From the NCBI RefSeq assembly GCF_000337215.1, contig NZ_AOHZ01000051.1, forward strand, positions 1 to 43,658: a DNA stretch of 43,658 nt, given 5' to 3'. Of this stretch, positions 2,810-9,800 are shown piece by piece (position 1 is the first letter of the stretch; each line of letters starts with the position of its first letter). Position numbers and translations under genes: made by a program. Under the pieces are notes generated by a model. That model was not told where the DNA came from. It did no database searches and worked only from the letters and a program-made list of their open reading frames with translations. Source of the stretch: Natronolimnohabitans innermongolicus JCM 12255. Lineage in GTDB: Archaea > Halobacteriota > Halobacteria > Halobacteriales > Natrialbaceae.

Positions 2810-2943
2810 TCGATCGCCTTCTCGACACGGAGGGGTATAGTTTTATTACACTTTTATATTCTCAACCATCTCATCCGCAACTATCCCTCGTAATGAAACA
2901 GTAGCTAATTCGAATATATTCTGTACTAATTTGGGTGAACGGA

Positions 2944-2950
2944 TTTATAT
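2944..2950 (+). promoter_or_regulatory. TATA-like box upstream of the first secreted paralogue
   Basis: TTTATAT sits in an AT-rich tract (about 2835-2970), far richer in A/T than the surrounding genes. It is 62 nt before the ATG at 3012, predicting a leader of roughly 35-40 nt. Two further T/A-rich clusters at about 2840 and 2915 could be alternative or upstream elements. Confidence 0.4.
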
Positions 2951-3011
2951 CACCGATAATAATTGTGATGAGTGAGTTATCGGTTCTCGCCCGCTGGGCT
3001 GGAAGCATACG

Positions 3012-3878
3012 ATGGCAAATCGAACACCACTCTCACGACGTGATAGCTTGATGGCGATTGCGACCGGGAGCACGCTACTTGGCGGCGGCGCGCTGGTCGT
3101 ATCGGCCACTATGGACGACGACGGACGAGATGCCGAGGACGACGAAAACGGCGGAGACGACGAATCAGCCGAGGTCGATCCCGACGAAATCGAGTTCGTG
3201 GCAGCGTGCGTCGACGAGGAACGCGAGTTCGCGACGTTCCGGGTCGACAACGACAACGACGAGTCGGTCACGCTGACGACGGAGGGGACGTCAGTTATCG
3301 ACTTCGGTCGGAACGGCACCGATGAAACCGACGCCAGCAGCGACGACGACAGCGGCGACGTCGATCACGACGAGGCGGTCGAGCAGGTCAACTCGATCAT
3401 CGAAGACACGAACGAACGCCTCGAGAACGTCGATGATGTCGAACCGATCGACGAGATCGACGCGAATACCGGCGACGATGTCCAGGAGGAAGTATTCACG
3501 CAAGTCGTTGCCGAGATCAACGCTCAGTCCCAGGAGCTCCTCGGGACGGACATTGCGGGTGCTGTCGACACGCCCGACGAAGCTCGCGCGGAAGCCGACG
3601 AGATCGAAGCGGAGTACGGCGCCGCAGCACAAGAGGCCGTTGATGGGCTAAACGACGCCGCCGACAACGTCGAGGAGATACGTGAACTCACCGACCGTGG
3701 CGGCAGCGGGGACGGTTCGGCCGACGAACTGACCGTCGGCGCCGACGACTCGGAGACGGTCACGACCGGACTCGAGGACGACACGGCGACGGTATCGCTT
3801 CACCTGGACGGCGACGAGATCGCAGAGGCGACCGCCGATTACGACGAGATGGACAACTACTGCTCTCACAGCCCCTGA
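3012..3878 (+). CDS. Tat-exported acidic surface protein with an inserted helical domain
   Basis: The function of this 288-residue protein is unknown. Residues 8-32 look like a Tat signal (SRRDSLMAIATG, then a hydrophobic stretch), with no Cys, so it is probably released or surface-associated rather than a lipoprotein. An acidic linker follows. Residues about 59-96 (EFVAACVDEE, FATFRVDNDN) start a beta-sandwich of a type common on haloarchaeal surface proteins. The matching strands (ELTVGADDSETV, TATVSLHLDG, final NYC) come only at 239-284. Between them lie residues 121-227, a predicted helical segment about 63% identical (68 of 108 aligned positions, counted by eye) to one in the protein at 5789-6535. 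Cys66 and Cys284 could form a disulfide closing the beta domain. The start follows an AT-rich promoter tract. Confidence 0.8.
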   Translation: MANRTPLSRRDSLMAIATGSTLLGGGALVVSATMDDDGRDAEDDENGGDDESAEVDPDEIEFVAACVDEEREFATFRVDNDNDESVTLTTEGTSVIDFGRNGTDETDASSDDDSGDVDHDEAVEQVNSIIEDTNERLENVDDVEPIDEIDANTGDDVQEEVFTQVVAEINAQSQELLGTDIAGAVDTPDEARAEADEIEAEYGAAAQEAVDGLNDAADNVEEIRELTDRGGSGDGSADELTVGADDSETVTTGLEDDTATVSLHLDGDEIAEATADYDEMDNYCSHSP

Positions 3879-4221
3879 AGGCCAATGGACAGTAGAGAAC
3901 CGCTGTCCGTGAGGCACAACGGTTCCGCGATCGTTTCGATCACGCTGTTCTGTTGCACCGCTCGTTTCTGACGGGAGCGATACCTACGGTAGCGTTCCGG
4001 CTACCTGCGTCGCAGCGCGCTCGAGAACCGAAGGTCGGTCCGATCGGGAGATTCAAAAGCTGTCATCCGGTTATCGAACCACCGGTTCTGCGCTTTCGTT
4101 CGCCCGTCGTTCACCGCAGATCCGCACCGGCTACGGCGACCGAGCTAGTTCAGTACTAAACTACAATGAATTATAAATTTGTTTTTCGTCCATAACTTCT
4201 AAATATCAATGTTGATAATTA
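3879..4221. other. Intergenic region with AT-rich promoter
   Basis: No convincing gene. An imperfect hairpin with GGACAG/CTGTCC arms lies just after the upstream stop (3887-3908). The 3' end (about 4155-4221) is strongly AT-rich, with ATTATAAATTT near 4168-4178, and is the likely promoter for the membrane protein at 4222. A 68-codon frame at 3953-4159 is rich in Pro and Arg and lacks haloarchaeal acidic character, so I do not call it. Confidence 0.4.
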
Positions 4222-4842
4222 ATGGGCGTGGTTATCGATAACGAGTCGAAAGCCGCGATCGCACTCGGCGCGCTCGCTGGCGCACTCGCGTGGATCGTCG
4301 GATACGGCCTTACCTACGCCGCCTCGATCAGCGATCTCCGATCGAACGAACAGTACGACACCCTCGAGGCTGCAACCGACGAATCACTCGCCGTCGAGAT
4401 GGTCGGGTTGCTCTACTACAACGCGCACAACGTTGTCGCGGACGTTCCGCAGTACAGCGTTCTACAGGCGCTCGAGCCGAGTCACAACTTCGTCCTCGCA
4501 GAAGGCGGGAGCACCCTGGCGTTGTACGCGATCCCCGTATTGTTCTTGATGGGCGCCGGGGCGGTGGTCACGCTATACACCCACAGCACCGACGAGTCGG
4601 CGACAGACGCCGCGCTCTCCGGGTCGGTGATCGTCGTCGGCTACCTCCCGCTCGTCGTCTTCGGAACGTTCGTGTTTACGGTCGATCCGGGCAATGGAGC
4701 GATGGCGCCGGACCTGTTCCTGGCGATCGGGCTAGCCGGAACGTTCTATCCGCTCGTCCTGGGCGCACTCGGCGGCGTCGTCGCACACGTCGTTTCGCGC
4801 ACGCCCCAGAGCGGTTCGGTCTCCGATCCGAACAGTACGTGA
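4222..4842 (+). CDS. Multi-pass membrane protein of unknown function (DUF7978-like)
   Basis: This 206-residue protein has four predicted membrane helices: about residues 11-33, 92-113 (after a conserved-looking loop with YYNAHNVVADVP), 131-152 and 164-190. The tail is short and Ser/Asn-rich. The long outside loop between helices 1 and 2 is aromatic and acidic. The arrangement resembles a haloarchaeal membrane family annotated as DUF7978, recalled from memory and not checked. No enzymatic motif is visible. It lies between the two secreted paralogues, but promoter-like AT-rich DNA on both sides suggests it is transcribed separately. Confidence 0.75.
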   Translation: MGVVIDNESKAAIALGALAGALAWIVGYGLTYAASISDLRSNEQYDTLEAATDESLAVEMVGLLYYNAHNVVADVPQYSVLQALEPSHNFVLAEGGSTLALYAIPVLFLMGAGAVVTLYTHSTDESATDAALSGSVIVVGYLPLVVFGTFVFTVDPGNGAMAPDLFLAIGLAGTFYPLVLGALGGVVAHVVSRTPQSGSVSDPNST

Positions 4843-5788
4843 CGACCGTCACCATGTAGACGCCCGGGTTCTCGTCCGCGAGTCGCCGCCTCACGGACCA
4901 CCGAGGACCGTCACTGCACACCTGATCGCCAGAGGGCGTTCCGATCAGTGTATAACTCGTTTCAGTAGCTCCGCTACCATCGAGGTCGTTCCGAACTCGC
5001 CGACTCGCTCAGTCACGAGAATCGACGATTCTCGAACGACGTGGCCTCGAACTGATTCACCGACAGCCTCGAGCGACGTGTTATCGTGTGGTGGGTTCCC
5101 TCGAGCGGATGCGAGAACGAGTACGCCATCCGCAACCGGAACGGATCACCGGACGGCGCGACCGACACACCACGAGGGTCACGGGAGTATTCCGCCGTGG
5201 ATCCAACGTGCGTTACCGCGATTCAGGGACGGTCGCCCTCGAAGCCGTGCCGGGATCCGTATCCCTCGAGGTGACGAGTCCCCACCGGTTGCGACGGTAG
5301 TGACGTGACCGCTCCGTTCGACGGCTTCGACGGTCCTCGCGGCCGGTCGGTCGAGGGACGGCTTCGAGCGGATCGACTCAGCACGAACCGCTCGGTGTTC
5401 CGAAGCGAAGCGAGTTTCACGCTATCTAACCGATCGAGAGGGTACACCGTGGTATCGGCTCGAGTGGTGGATACGCGGATTCGTCTCCGTCGCGACGAGA
5501 GGGCAATCGTGCTATTGTCGTGGGGAACCCTCTTTCAACGCCCAGAGACGGCTGATTCGAGCTGTCGGTGACAAATAATCACGGTCCTCGACTGGTTCGA
5601 TCAAGCGGTAGTTCGATACGATGTTTATCTAATTCTCGAGTAATTATTCAGGTAATTAGTTGCAGAAATCTCAATTGGAATCAGTAGAACTAATGGGAGA
5701 ACTGGGAACTTTGAACGATATCTTCGTTTAATAGTGTCGTCTGCTGACCTTCCACACGCCTTCGTTACACTGCGAAGGTAGTGATCAA
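4843..5788. other. Long gene-poor gap with a gene remnant and AT-rich promoter
   Basis: Nearly 950 nt lack an intact gene. The minus strand carries a 66-codon coding-like remnant (4945-5145, listed separately). Further upstream on the same strand are short coding-like pieces interrupted by stops, for example a stretch around 5270-5340 reading RTVEAVERSGHVTTVA. The right end, about 5570-5790, is AT-rich and should contain the promoter of the gene at 5789. The pattern suggests a decayed gene on the minus strand. Confidence 0.45.
4945..5145 (-). pseudogene. Possible remnant of a decayed gene (C-terminal part)
   Basis: A 66-codon minus-strand stretch with good haloarchaeal codon use ends at a TGA at 4945-4947. 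It includes ADGVLVLASARGN, then VGESVRGHVVRESSILVTE. It has no start codon of its own and is closed upstream by a TGA at 5146-5148. The order of a hydrophobic strand, Gly/Arg turn, VGxSV helix and another strand is weakly reminiscent of the end of a universal stress protein, but this is only a resemblance. I infer a truncated, inactive gene; chance coding character is the alternative. Confidence 0.35.
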
Positions 5789-6535
5789 ATGAGTCAACAA
5801 CGATGGACACAGGTCCTTGCGGTAACGTTCGCCATCCTTATGGCGTCATCTGCGGCGCTGGTCGGCTTCGGGTCGGTCGCGGCGCAGACGTCTGAAGAAG
5901 ACGCAGTCGAAGAGGTCAACGAAGACATCGCGGAAATCAACGAACGGTTCGAGAACGTCGACGACATCGAAGAAGTAGAGGAGTTTGACGCGGACGTACA
6001 GGAAGACCTACAGGATGAGACGTTCGATCAAATAGTTGCGGAGATCAACGCCCAGTCCCAGGAACTCCTCGGGACGGACATTGCGGATGATGTCGACACG
6101 CCCGAGGACGCCCGCGAGGAAGCTGACGCGATCGAAGATGAGTACGGTGTCGCAGCCCAGGACGCCGTTGACGCGCTGAACGACGGCGCGGACACCGTCG
6201 AGGACTGGCAGCAACTCGCCGAAGAACTCGAAGAGGCTGAGGAAGAGGCCCCTGACGAAGACGAAGAAGAGGCCCCTGACGAAGACGAAGAAGAGGCCCC
6301 TGACGAAGACGAAGAAGAGGCCCCTGACGAAGACGACCTCGAGATCCCTGATGACGCCGGAACCATCGTCGTCGAGGAACTCACCGTCGAAGAGCTGACC
6401 GGCATGGAGATCAATATCGAGAACATCTACGTGATCCTCGACAGTATCGTGGAGGACATGCCGGTTGACGACCTACCGGAGGACCCCAACGATGACGAGT
6501 CGTACGATGAGAGCGACGACAAACACTGTCCGTAG
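5789..6535 (+). CDS. Secreted acidic protein sharing a helical domain with the 3012-3878 product
   Basis: The function of this 248-residue protein is unknown. Residues 1-33 form a Sec-type signal peptide (hydrophobic VLAVTFAILMASSAALVGF, cleavage near AAQT). Residues about 36-143 are the helical domain shared with the upstream protein, including an identical run VAEINAQSQELLGTDIA. Next comes a very acidic linker with four EEAPDEDE-type repeats (about 151-183), then a C-terminal part with VVEELTVEELTGMEINIENIYV and an acidic tail ending DKHCP. Unlike its paralogue, it has no beta-sandwich halves around the shared domain. It has a Sec rather than a Tat signal, which is unusual between relatives in one genome. 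A T-run terminator follows. Confidence 0.82.
   Translation: MSQQRWTQVLAVTFAILMASSAALVGFGSVAAQTSEEDAVEEVNEDIAEINERFENVDDIEEVEEFDADVQEDLQDETFDQIVAEINAQSQELLGTDIADDVDTPEDAREEADAIEDEYGVAAQDAVDALNDGADTVEDWQQLAEELEEAEEEAPDEDEEEAPDEDEEEAPDEDEEEAPDEDDLEIPDDAGTIVVEELTVEELTGMEINIENIYVILDSIVEDMPVDDLPEDPNDDESYDESDDKHCP
6242..6336 (+). repeat. Four 24-nt tandem coding repeats (EEAPDEDE)
   Basis: A 24-nt unit beginning GAAGAGGCCCCTGACGAAGA starts at 6242, 6266, 6290 and 6314, nearly identical at the nucleotide level. The repeats keep the frame and encode an acidic, Pro-containing linker. Near identity at silent positions suggests recent expansion by slippage, so copy number may differ between strains. Confidence 0.95.
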
Positions 6536-6583
6536 CGACTGACGAACACCACTCGAGGGCGCGAGCGACTCTCGAGCGCACCG

Positions 6584-6592
6584 TTCTTTTTT
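6584..6592 (+). terminator. T-run terminator after the secreted protein gene
   Basis: TTCTTTTTT lies about 50 nt after the stop at 6535, preceded by a GC-rich stretch with CTCGAG inverted words. This is a standard archaeal termination signal and separates this gene from the convergent polymerase gene. Confidence 0.5.
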
Positions 6593-6800
6593 GTACTCGG
6601 CGGAAGCGTCCCGTAGTTCACTCGGCGTTGAACGCACTCACCAAGCACTCTGGCACCGAGTACATCGGCTTGCAGACAGCGTACCAGACCCGTCGACGGC
6701 TACGAGAGCACCGGTCTCGGTTGCGGACAGTTTCGTTTCCGTTCTGAGAAACCGTCCGATGAACTACGCGCCGAAGATGGAAGAAGAGCGAAACACGGTA

Positions 6801-9800
6801 CTATCCATCTCCGGGCCCGCCACCCATGAAATCCGCAATAGTCGTGGGCTTATTCTTGTCGTTCTCGAAGATGCTCTCGAGAGATTTCTCGAGGACCTCT
6901 AAGCGCTGTTTCGTGTAGTCTCGACAGTCGTATTCGTCGGCGACCTGGATCGCGGTCTGCATGTACTTGTTGACCGAGCCCTTGTGAACGGTGAGGTTGA
7001 CCCGACCGCCACACTCTCGACAGTCGCCGGTCAGGGGCATCCGGCGGAACTTCTCGCCGCAATCTAGACAGCGGGTTTCCTGGCGCGAAAAGGCCCGCAA
7101 GTTCCCGATCAGGTCCGGCAGGAAGTGATACTCGATGACCCGTTCGGCGACGTCGGTCTCGTCGACGGCCTCGAGTTTGCGCGAGAGCTCGAGCTGGGCG
7201 TCCATCTTGTCCATCATCGAGCCCAGCGTCTTGTACGCCGAGAGGTCGGGCCCCATCGCGATGTCGGTGGTGTCGTGGGTGTGCTCGAAGCCGGTGTACT
7301 CGCCGTCCGTGCCGAGGGTATCCTCGCCGATCTGGATGTCTACGGATTCAGGATCGGCCTGCTCGCGGGTAGCGAGGTAGAACTCGCGGGGGTACTGGCT
7401 GACGATGTCCATGTTGTGGGCCTCGTCGTCGATCTCGGAGGGATCGATGCGTGAGGACATGACGAGGGGCGCGTCCATGCGGCCGCCCCGAGAGGAGGGG
7501 AGGAACGACCGGCTAAAGTTGATGAGACCGTCCATGAGCAACATGACGCAATCTTCGTCGCCGTCACACTGGGCCGAGTAGAGGTCGTTTGCGACGAGCG
7601 TATGCGTCCCTGAAACCGTCAGACAATACGTGTAGTCGGTGTCGGCCGGGAGCGGTTCGGTTCGGTCGACGATATCGACCGGCGGACGACCTCCGTCGGT
7701 GACGCCCGTCGCTGCTGTGGCTCCGATATCCGTCGGAGACCGATTTGGCGTCGGAATCTCGTCGCCGGGCTCGAGTTCGCTCGCGGCGATTCGTTCGAGA
7801 CCGTCGTTCCAGACGACCATCGTGTGATCCGGGGTTACGGTCAACGACCGTCCGTTGCGGGTTTCGACGCGGATCAAATGGTCGGGAGCCGGGTGCTTCG
7901 ACACGGCGTCGACCGGTCGGCGAACGCGTCGTCCGTCGTCGTCGATCGACGGGACGGTAATCGATTGCTCGAGTTCCTGAACGAGCGTCCCGAAGTCGTC
8001 TTCGCGGGGATCGGTTAGCCGCGACTCGACGAACGCCTCGATCGATTCCTCGCGCGCGATTCCGGCTTCGTCTTCGTAGCGGACCGTCGTCTCGGGGTGG
8101 AAACAGTTCCGACGCTTCGCGGCGTGAAAGTACGGATGCGCGTATCCGACCGCGGCGCTCGTAAATCCCACCACTCTCCCGACGGTCGCCGCGCTCGTGT
8201 GCGGCGCCATCCCGAAGACCAGCTCCCCGACGAGCTCCTGGCGATCCTCGAGTTCGTAAAACGGCTCGAGGCCGTAGTACTGCTCGAGCAGGTCGTCGAT
8301 GAAGTTCGCCGTCTGCAGCATGTGCTCGGCGGCGCCGTCCGAGAGGACGATGTCCTGGACCTTGAGCTCGACCAGCTGGTCCTCGTGGGTCAGGGGCTCG
8401 CCGTGGATGTCTTCCTCGTAGCCGAGCGCCTGCAACTGGCCGACGTCGACGTCGAGTTCGCTGGCCCGAACCGAGGTGACGGGCAGGTCGGTCATGTCGT
8501 AGCGGACGGTGCCGTCCTTGAACGACGAGACGTCGTGTTTGGCCCGTAGGATTCCTTTCTCGATGGGTTCGGGAACCTTGGTCGTCGAGGTCAGCCCCTT
8601 GACGCCTTTCAGGATGTCGAAGGCGTTCTCGCGTTCGCCGACCGACTCGAGGGCGTTGCGAAACTCCTCGTTGATGTCGATCTCCCGGGTCTCGACGCAG
8701 GTGGCCTCGACCTCACAGCGGCCACACTCGACGCGGCCGGCCTCGTCGGGTTCGACGCGGTCGTCGCAGTCCGGACAGCGGTAGTCGGGCTTCGTTCGGG
8801 CGGAACACTCGGGACAGCGGTTCTTGAACGTCTCCTCGTGACAGTCGGGACAGCGCTGGCGACCGATCTGCACCTCGACGACGCCGGGGGTATCCCGCAT
8901 CGTCTCGGCGTGTTTGGCCGCGTCGGCGACGTTTCGCTGCGTGCCGCCGGCCTCGCCGATGGGAAAGAGCGTGTGGACGGCGGGGCTCAGGTCGCGGCTC
9001 TCCGACTTTTCGGGTCGGCCCATTCGGTTTCCGATTCGCGTGGGCGCGCGCTCGCGAACGCGGAAGGGGGCGACCTCGTTGACCGCCTCGATGGCGTTGG
9101 CGCCCGGGTCTTCGCTCTCGTGGCCCCACTCGCGGGCGCGCTCGGAGAGGTCGTCGTCGGACCAGGTGCGCTCGAGTTCGACGATCGGTTCGTCCTCGCG
9201 ACCGTCGGGATCGAGCGCGGCTCCGTCGGCGACCGCTCGTCGGGGTTCACAGCCGACGGTGCGGGCGAACGGCAGCCAGTCGTCGATCTCGATTCTGTCG
9301 TCGCCCTCGCGCTGGCGGTGTTCGACGATGAGCGCCTCGAGGATCGCCGCCGTAGACTCCTCGTAGGGGAGCACGAGCGTCCCGTCGGCGTCGGCTTCGT
9401 CGCCACCGATTTCGTCGTCGTCGGCGCCTTCGATCCGGCCGGCGGCGACGGCGTCGGTCAGTTCGCAGAACTCGTCGACCGAGATATCGTGCCAGAGGTA
9501 GGTGTAGGCGGGGTGAAGCGGCGCGTCGTACTCGAGGGCCCACTCGAGGGCCTCGTCGGCGTCGGGGTTTTCGAGGTCGATTCGGGGGTCGTCCTCGAAG
9601 GCCTGTACGTCGGCGCCGGCGGCCGCTAAGTCCTGTATCCACCACTCGTCGGTGTAGGAGGCGGGTGCGAGCGGGTGGTTGTTCTCGATGAACTCGCCGT
9701 AGTTGACGAGGTACTCGCCGAGGTCGACGATCTTCTCGACGCCGTTTCTGATCTCGAGGGCTTCCTCGGGATCGTCGATGCGTCGAACGTCGCCGTTTGC

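Follow-up and report, generated by a model that had tools for sequence, protein, structure and literature searches.

A three-helix module carried by unrelated exported proteins of Natrialbaceae, with signs of domain shuffling, gene conversion and cassette insertion in Natronolimnohabitans innermongolicus

Two exported proteins, P1 and P2, encoded on a 43,658-nt stretch of the Natronolimnohabitans innermongolicus JCM 12255 genome (contig NZ_AOHZ01000051.1, positions 1 to 43,658; hereafter the window) carry a common helical module on otherwise unrelated scaffolds. Structure prediction indicates a three-helix bundle of about 105 residues, and the module seems specific to Natrialbaceae, where it is found on exported, probably cell-surface proteins. 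The overall explanation that we favor, and in which we have a reasonable degree of confidence, is that the module has been shuffled among exported proteins of this family, that the cores of its two window copies have been converted, that the cassette encoding them was inserted at its present site, and that the module would serve as a surface interaction unit. A sequence-only reading of the window had offered duplication, gene conversion or a mobile module as the origin of the pair; we find evidence for all three, and that interpretation is largely supported.

Results

Residues 122-225 of P1 and 39-142 of P2 align without gaps, with 67 of 104 positions identical (64%) and 83 of 104 positive (BLASTP, E 3e-38). 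BLASTP returns no alignment between the proteins beyond this one continuous module, in agreement with the initial view that they have a helical domain in common and are unrelated elsewhere. At the DNA level the match falls into two blocks, 79% over 221 nt (3474-3694 and 6002-6222) and 71% over 96 nt (3369-3464 and 5897-5992), both at a constant offset of 2528 nt, and 240 of 321 nt are identical over the complete module. The best 72-nt stretch agrees at 66 positions, compared with 40-45 in codon-shuffled controls (n = 20). The tract pair originally singled out does match at 65 of 72 nt when placed in the right register, but its coordinates were 2 nt out of register, since 3512 pairs with 6040 and not with 6038. 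The proteins had been taken not to be full-length paralogues, and this holds: nothing aligns beyond the module, and the orthologues of each protein in other genomes (carrier types A and B, described below) keep separate architectures. These two copies are the only ones in the N. innermongolicus genome, of which the window is one entire contig (C51). The features of the locus are collected in Table 1.

Table 1. Features of the P1-P2 locus in window coordinates
Feature	Position	Strand	Basis and remarks
Cassette island between convergent hydrolase and DNA polymerase II large subunit genes	2810..6800	.	GC 58.5% vs 64.8% for the window; only 228 nt (G001) and 68 nt (G016) at this place
P1, Tat-exported protein, 288 aa, carrier type A (module in loop of split beta domain)	3012..3878	+	ORF; type-A orthologues L037, L038, L039, L041, L033
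Host beta domain of P1, N-terminal half (about residues 55-100)	3174..3311	+	Profile match, positions 1-48; AF2 strands 60-67, 73-80, 86-88 (low confidence)
Helical module, copy 1 (P1)	3369..3692	+	DNA and protein match; AF2 helices 119-136, 153-177, 188-230 in full-length P1
P1 core tract, apparently homogenised with P2 by gene conversion	3505..3583 (limits approximate)	+	
Host beta domain of P1, C-terminal half (about residues 238-285)	3723..3866	+	Profile match; AF2 strands 240-276 (low confidence)
Membrane protein, 206 aa, about four predicted TM segments; cassette partner gene	4222..4842	+	Hydropathy
P2, 248-aa protein exported by Sec, carrier type B (signal and module, then acidic and VEELT repeats; Cys close to the C-terminus)	5789..6535	+	ORF; type-B orthologues L004, L034, L035, L036
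Helical module, copy 2 (P2)	5897..6217	+	DNA and protein match; AF2 pLDDT 96.4, helices 2-16, 32-58, 69-105
P2 core tract, apparently homogenised with P1	6033..6111 (limits approximate)	+	
24-nt tandem repeats of P2 coding the acidic linker EEEAPDED	6230..6335	+	Repeat family D2
V-E-E-L-T five-residue repeats of P2 ahead of the C-terminus	6368..6400	+	Sequence; longer in L004 and L034

The module had been put forward as a domain without a recognised name, which agrees with our searches: neither P1 nor P2 matches a Pfam or NCBIfam model, sub-threshold coiled-coil noise aside, and the best 25 of 57 matches of 61 module copies to Pfam-A (E <= 1) were all weak and coiled-coil-like. The best Pfam candidate, DUF948, was rejected because it falls below its gathering cut-off (single-module best E 5e-4; whole L018 protein 33.0 against a cut-off of 37.2). 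Nor did the open-access papers listed by our literature searches include a description of the domain. AlphaFold2 models the module, from a 61-row alignment, as a confident three-helix bundle (pLDDT 96.4, pTM 0.88; helix limits in Table 1). Comparison of this model with the PDB by Foldseek and VIA, with ferritin-like/Dps, BAG and spectrin folds included, yielded generic helical bundles only; the best Foldseek E was 2.4 and the best VIA Z was 4.8, for Dps (77 residues, rmsd 4.3), which is the range expected for unrelated bundles. Ten positions are near-invariant (N8, F43, I50, A72, R73, A76, L94, A98, D99 and E102), and the core motifs FTQVVAEINAQ and TPEEAR are among the best-conserved parts of the module across the family.

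Profile searches gave 63 module matches on carriers of several architectures, all within the Natrialbaceae, where the module occurs in 23 of 125 genomes and 8 of 29 genera (the weakest match, in G049, is marginal at E 0.009). Samples of 392 order-level and 391 class-level genomes yielded no copy outside the family; the genome searches start from an approximate initial screen that may overlook very divergent copies. They were nevertheless far more sensitive than a contig scan with P2 alone, which matched Natronococcus pandeyae only. Altogether there are about 60 copies; a single protein has one to six of them, and the exported scaffolds that bear them are of at least six kinds. The proposal of a mobile module is thereby upheld as far as the module itself is concerned. 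Carrier signal and anchor types were read from the sequences, without a dedicated prediction program. Type A, exemplified by P1, has a Tat signal and a beta domain split by the module, its relatives having one or two modules, and type B, exemplified by P2, has a Sec signal followed by one or more modules, an acidic linker, V-E-E-L-T-like repeats and a Cys near the C-terminus. Type C begins like a lipoprotein and has a longer module; type D combines a Tat-like signal with a beta-rich part and up to three modules; type E joins the module to CarboxypepD_reg and a C-terminal TM segment, PGF-CTERM-like in some members; and type F comprises giant proteins (1400-2300 aa) in which three to six modules are combined with as many as 13 Ig-like repeats (CarboxypepD_reg). 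The type-F carrier L047, with a single module, DUF7827 and a PGF-CTERM-like tail, we read as S-layer-like. Complete carriers have export-type N-termini, and many share the build of haloarchaeal surface proteins. Where modules stand in tandem, acidic or Gly-Ser linkers join them. The five-residue repeats of type-B carriers follow the pattern [VI]-E-E-L-[TN] close to the C-terminus and are succeeded by a Cys at or near it (window 6368-6400; L034:5558-7003; L004:6001-7527); they possibly form a pentapeptide-like beta helix.

The position of the module in P1 points to how it may have reached at least one of its scaffolds. We excised the module from five type-A proteins and used the rejoined beta part (A3) as a search profile, which gave unbroken matches spanning the insertion point in about 20 proteins of other genomes (one of them at G057:C1:3589691-3589927, with E 5e-8 over profile positions 1-82). 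In the alignment the module occupies the loop between 'GTxxSG' and the following strand. The full-length P1 model places strands on either side of the three helices with low confidence (pLDDT 57), and because that model is weak the split beta domain rests on the sequence alignment. On the strength of that alignment, we regard insertion of the module inside the host beta domain of P1 as established. A different domain ('EFIDCQTVRVVGDF...', with no Pfam match) sits at about the same loop in L107:1363-2211 and stands outside the host domain in L113. The loop thus seems to accept more than one insert and, to judge from these sequences, may be a general insertion socket.

Gene conversion had also been suggested, and here the module proves to have two histories. 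We compared the window copies (win) with the P1, P2 and P3 orthologues (pan) of N. pandeyae (G091). In its first third the module follows orthology (P1win-P1pan 74% vs P1win-P2win 66%; P2win-P2pan 78%). The middle third groups by genome, both in the window (P1win-P2win 81% vs P1win-P1pan 72%) and in N. pandeyae (P1pan-P2pan 84% vs P2win-P2pan 77%). In the last third P2win is 89% identical to P2pan, and P1win is 77% identical to both P1pan and P2win. Informative sites are ordered O...O C...C O...O along the module, and a permutation test on quartet sites gives p of about 0.001 per site and 0.004-0.005 per codon for their clustering. Core and flanks differ as 10:2 vs 4:16 (Fisher p 8e-4), although the permutation test is the fairer of the two because the core limits were partly known beforehand. 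In a core tree P1win and P2win are joined (UFBoot 95); in a flank tree P2win falls with P2/P3pan (100) and P1win with P1pan (84). The signal rests on roughly 36 informative sites, and in N. pandeyae a contig end truncates the P1 copy.

Could these be old paralogous modules without recent exchange, whose core similarity has been kept by selection? The core motifs do rank with the best-conserved segments of the module in the family as a whole. At synonymous positions of the core, however, both window copies have GGG, ATT and GCG and both N. pandeyae copies GGC, ATC and GCC, while flank sites follow orthology, and such synonymous sharing within a genome is not predicted by selection on the protein. 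We therefore find the selection account improbable. Since the flanks group by gene and the core by genome, at synonymous sites too, we attribute the pattern to gene conversion and count the partial overwriting of the P1 and P2 module cores as an established signal of these sequence comparisons. The chromosome copies of Haloferax volcanii are described as undergoing gene conversion with high efficiency (PMC11276520). In N. pandeyae, two contigs stop within a module copy or shortly behind one (L004:10385-10842 and L033:5449-5916), as if near-identical modules broke the assembly.

P1, the membrane protein gene and P2 make up a cassette of roughly 4 kb. Exactly 9 of the 125 family genomes, counting that of the window, have a close orthologue of the membrane protein (57-65%); the best of the remainder fall to about 40%. 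All nine genomes carry the module, and in 9/9 the membrane-protein orthologue lies a short way upstream of a module gene, a linkage whose probability by chance is about 5e-8 if phylogeny is ignored. Neither the membrane protein nor five distant homologues has a Pfam match above cut-off. Most carriers (types D, E and F) are without a close membrane-protein orthologue, so the module as such does not depend on that protein. The 946 nt that separate P2 from the membrane gene (4843-5788) contain no obvious gene; in relatives, too, a spacing from several hundred bases up to 1 kb recurs there. A Peptidase_S8 gene (subtilase family) separates two module genes in N. pandeyae (L004:8160-9779).

The convergent hydrolase and polymerase genes that flank the cassette are 3.99 kb apart in the window but 228 nt apart in the congener G001 and 68 nt apart in G016, a member of another genus. 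The cassettes of genera g9, g16 and g23 are found elsewhere, near nog1, pdxT or DUF151, none of which occurs in the window or at the N. pandeyae locus. Together with the empty sites, these different loci indicate that the cassette has changed place, either as a unit or piecemeal. An ancestral cassette at the hydrolase-polymerase site, lost from G001 and independently from the other genus with nothing ever inserted, would also leave such sites, and the comparison within the genus involves two genomes. The 228-bp gap of the congener holds no recognisable cassette remnant, a state that such loss could have left. This scenario nonetheless strikes us as quite unlikely, given that the two genes are adjacent in another genus as well and that the cassettes of other genera occupy a different locus. 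Insertion of the cassette between two housekeeping genes in N. innermongolicus is accordingly the reading of these spacings that we favor; the island itself we count as established. The polymerase gene itself contains about 534 extra nt in the window (7569-8102, minus strand) that read like a mini-intein without an endonuclease; the stretch is absent in G091, G057, G016 and G023, and the ORFs of G001 and G102 are much longer (1951 and 1763 aa).

What moved the cassette has left little trace. No exact repeat of 10 nt or more is common to the two island edges, which bear no mobile-element signature, and the window has no tRNA. The patchy distribution of the module and the lower GC of the relocated cassette might suggest a viral or plasmid-borne system, but we found no relative among IMG/VR viral contigs or PLSDB plasmids, and with neither tRNA nor edge repeats in view we consider such an origin highly improbable. 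The earlier suggestion of a mobile module thus holds for the domain, given its place within a loop of the beta domain, and for the gene cassette, whose site is empty in a congener. Neither transposition machinery nor a target duplication or viral carrier was found. We apply the term solely to the evolutionary outcome.

Discussion

The best-supported reading of the module is that of an extracellular unit displayed on several scaffolds for binding or spacing. In the mechanism that we envisage, the module would spread by shuffling, being inserted or duplicated into unrelated exported scaffolds and sometimes, as in P1, into a host beta-domain loop, and neighboring copies would exchange their cores by gene conversion. 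P1 would be exported by Tat and P2 by Sec, both would stay at the cell surface near their membrane partner, and the module they display would act as an interaction unit, either toward a ligand common to both or between the two proteins, with the acidic linkers acting as spacers suited to high salt. Surface retention, the binding role and the partnership with the membrane protein are what we infer from the data.

One alternative that we take seriously, while judging it unlikely, is that the module acts passively, as a stalk or spacer determining how far surface proteins reach, so that copy number counts and binding does not. Tandem copies do vary from one to six with acidic or Gly-Ser linkers, and the giant carriers alternate the module with many Ig-like repeats. 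Spacing alone fits less well with the near-invariant polar residues N8, R73, D99 and E102, with the single copy that small carriers (P1, P2 and the lipoproteins among them) use, or with the fact that the core rather than the ends is homogenised. The polar residues and single-copy use slightly favor binding, just as tandem amplification and low-complexity linkers slightly favor spacing. A bolder version of the interaction-unit reading, which we offer as a long shot, is that P1, the membrane protein and P2 form one surface recognition cassette in which conversion keeps the P1 and P2 interaction cores matched within a genome while they diverge between genomes. The outcome would be self-recognition or adhesion specific to a strain, and the beta-domain loop would serve as a socket whose inserts can be exchanged.

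GA modules are less than 60 residues long and bind serum albumin, a ligand not expected in the N. innermongolicus habitat. Found in Gram-positive surface proteins, including protein PAB, they are a case of a shuffled three-helix module (PMC3962080). The haloarchaeal module is likewise predicted to be a three-helix bundle, a weak criterion in itself, and likewise stands on several unrelated scaffolds by shuffling, their export signals being read from sequence. It differs in being archaeal, in its length of about 105 residues, in having spread also by insertion inside a host domain and in sequence, no GA family standing among the best 25 of the 57 Pfam-A matches of 61 copies, all of which are weak. 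The best reading of this comparison is that the module may work like GA modules and is not homologous to them by any test applied here. The VARTIG gene modules of Thermococcales, variable archaeal loci with Ig-domain genes, are also shaped by recombination between copies (PMC8416519). There, however, variation falls on the C-terminal Ig domain of a single large protein, whereas here a helical module moves between unrelated scaffolds; the Thermococcales are another clade, and we liken the two by description. Closer to home, the carrier L047 has the module together with DUF7827 and an anchor-like tail at its C-terminus, as in haloarchaeal S-layer-like and archaeosortase-type surface proteins, although P1 and P2 have no such anchor. 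Similarly, CarboxypepD_reg (PF13620) repeats are frequent neighbors of the module in types E and F but are absent from P1 and P2, and the module itself is not CarboxypepD_reg. We therefore file the module as a new domain family with a known kind of evolution, the less usual elements being insertion in a host-domain loop and core-limited conversion between differently built neighbors.

With this module the cell surface of haloarchaea, itself poorly known, gains a domain family that is uncatalogued yet predicted with confidence. The module also offers a readable case of archaeal domain shuffling, in which host-domain insertion, tandem amplification and partial gene conversion are all visible in living genomes, and the membrane gene linked to it in nine genomes provides a concrete partner for experiments.
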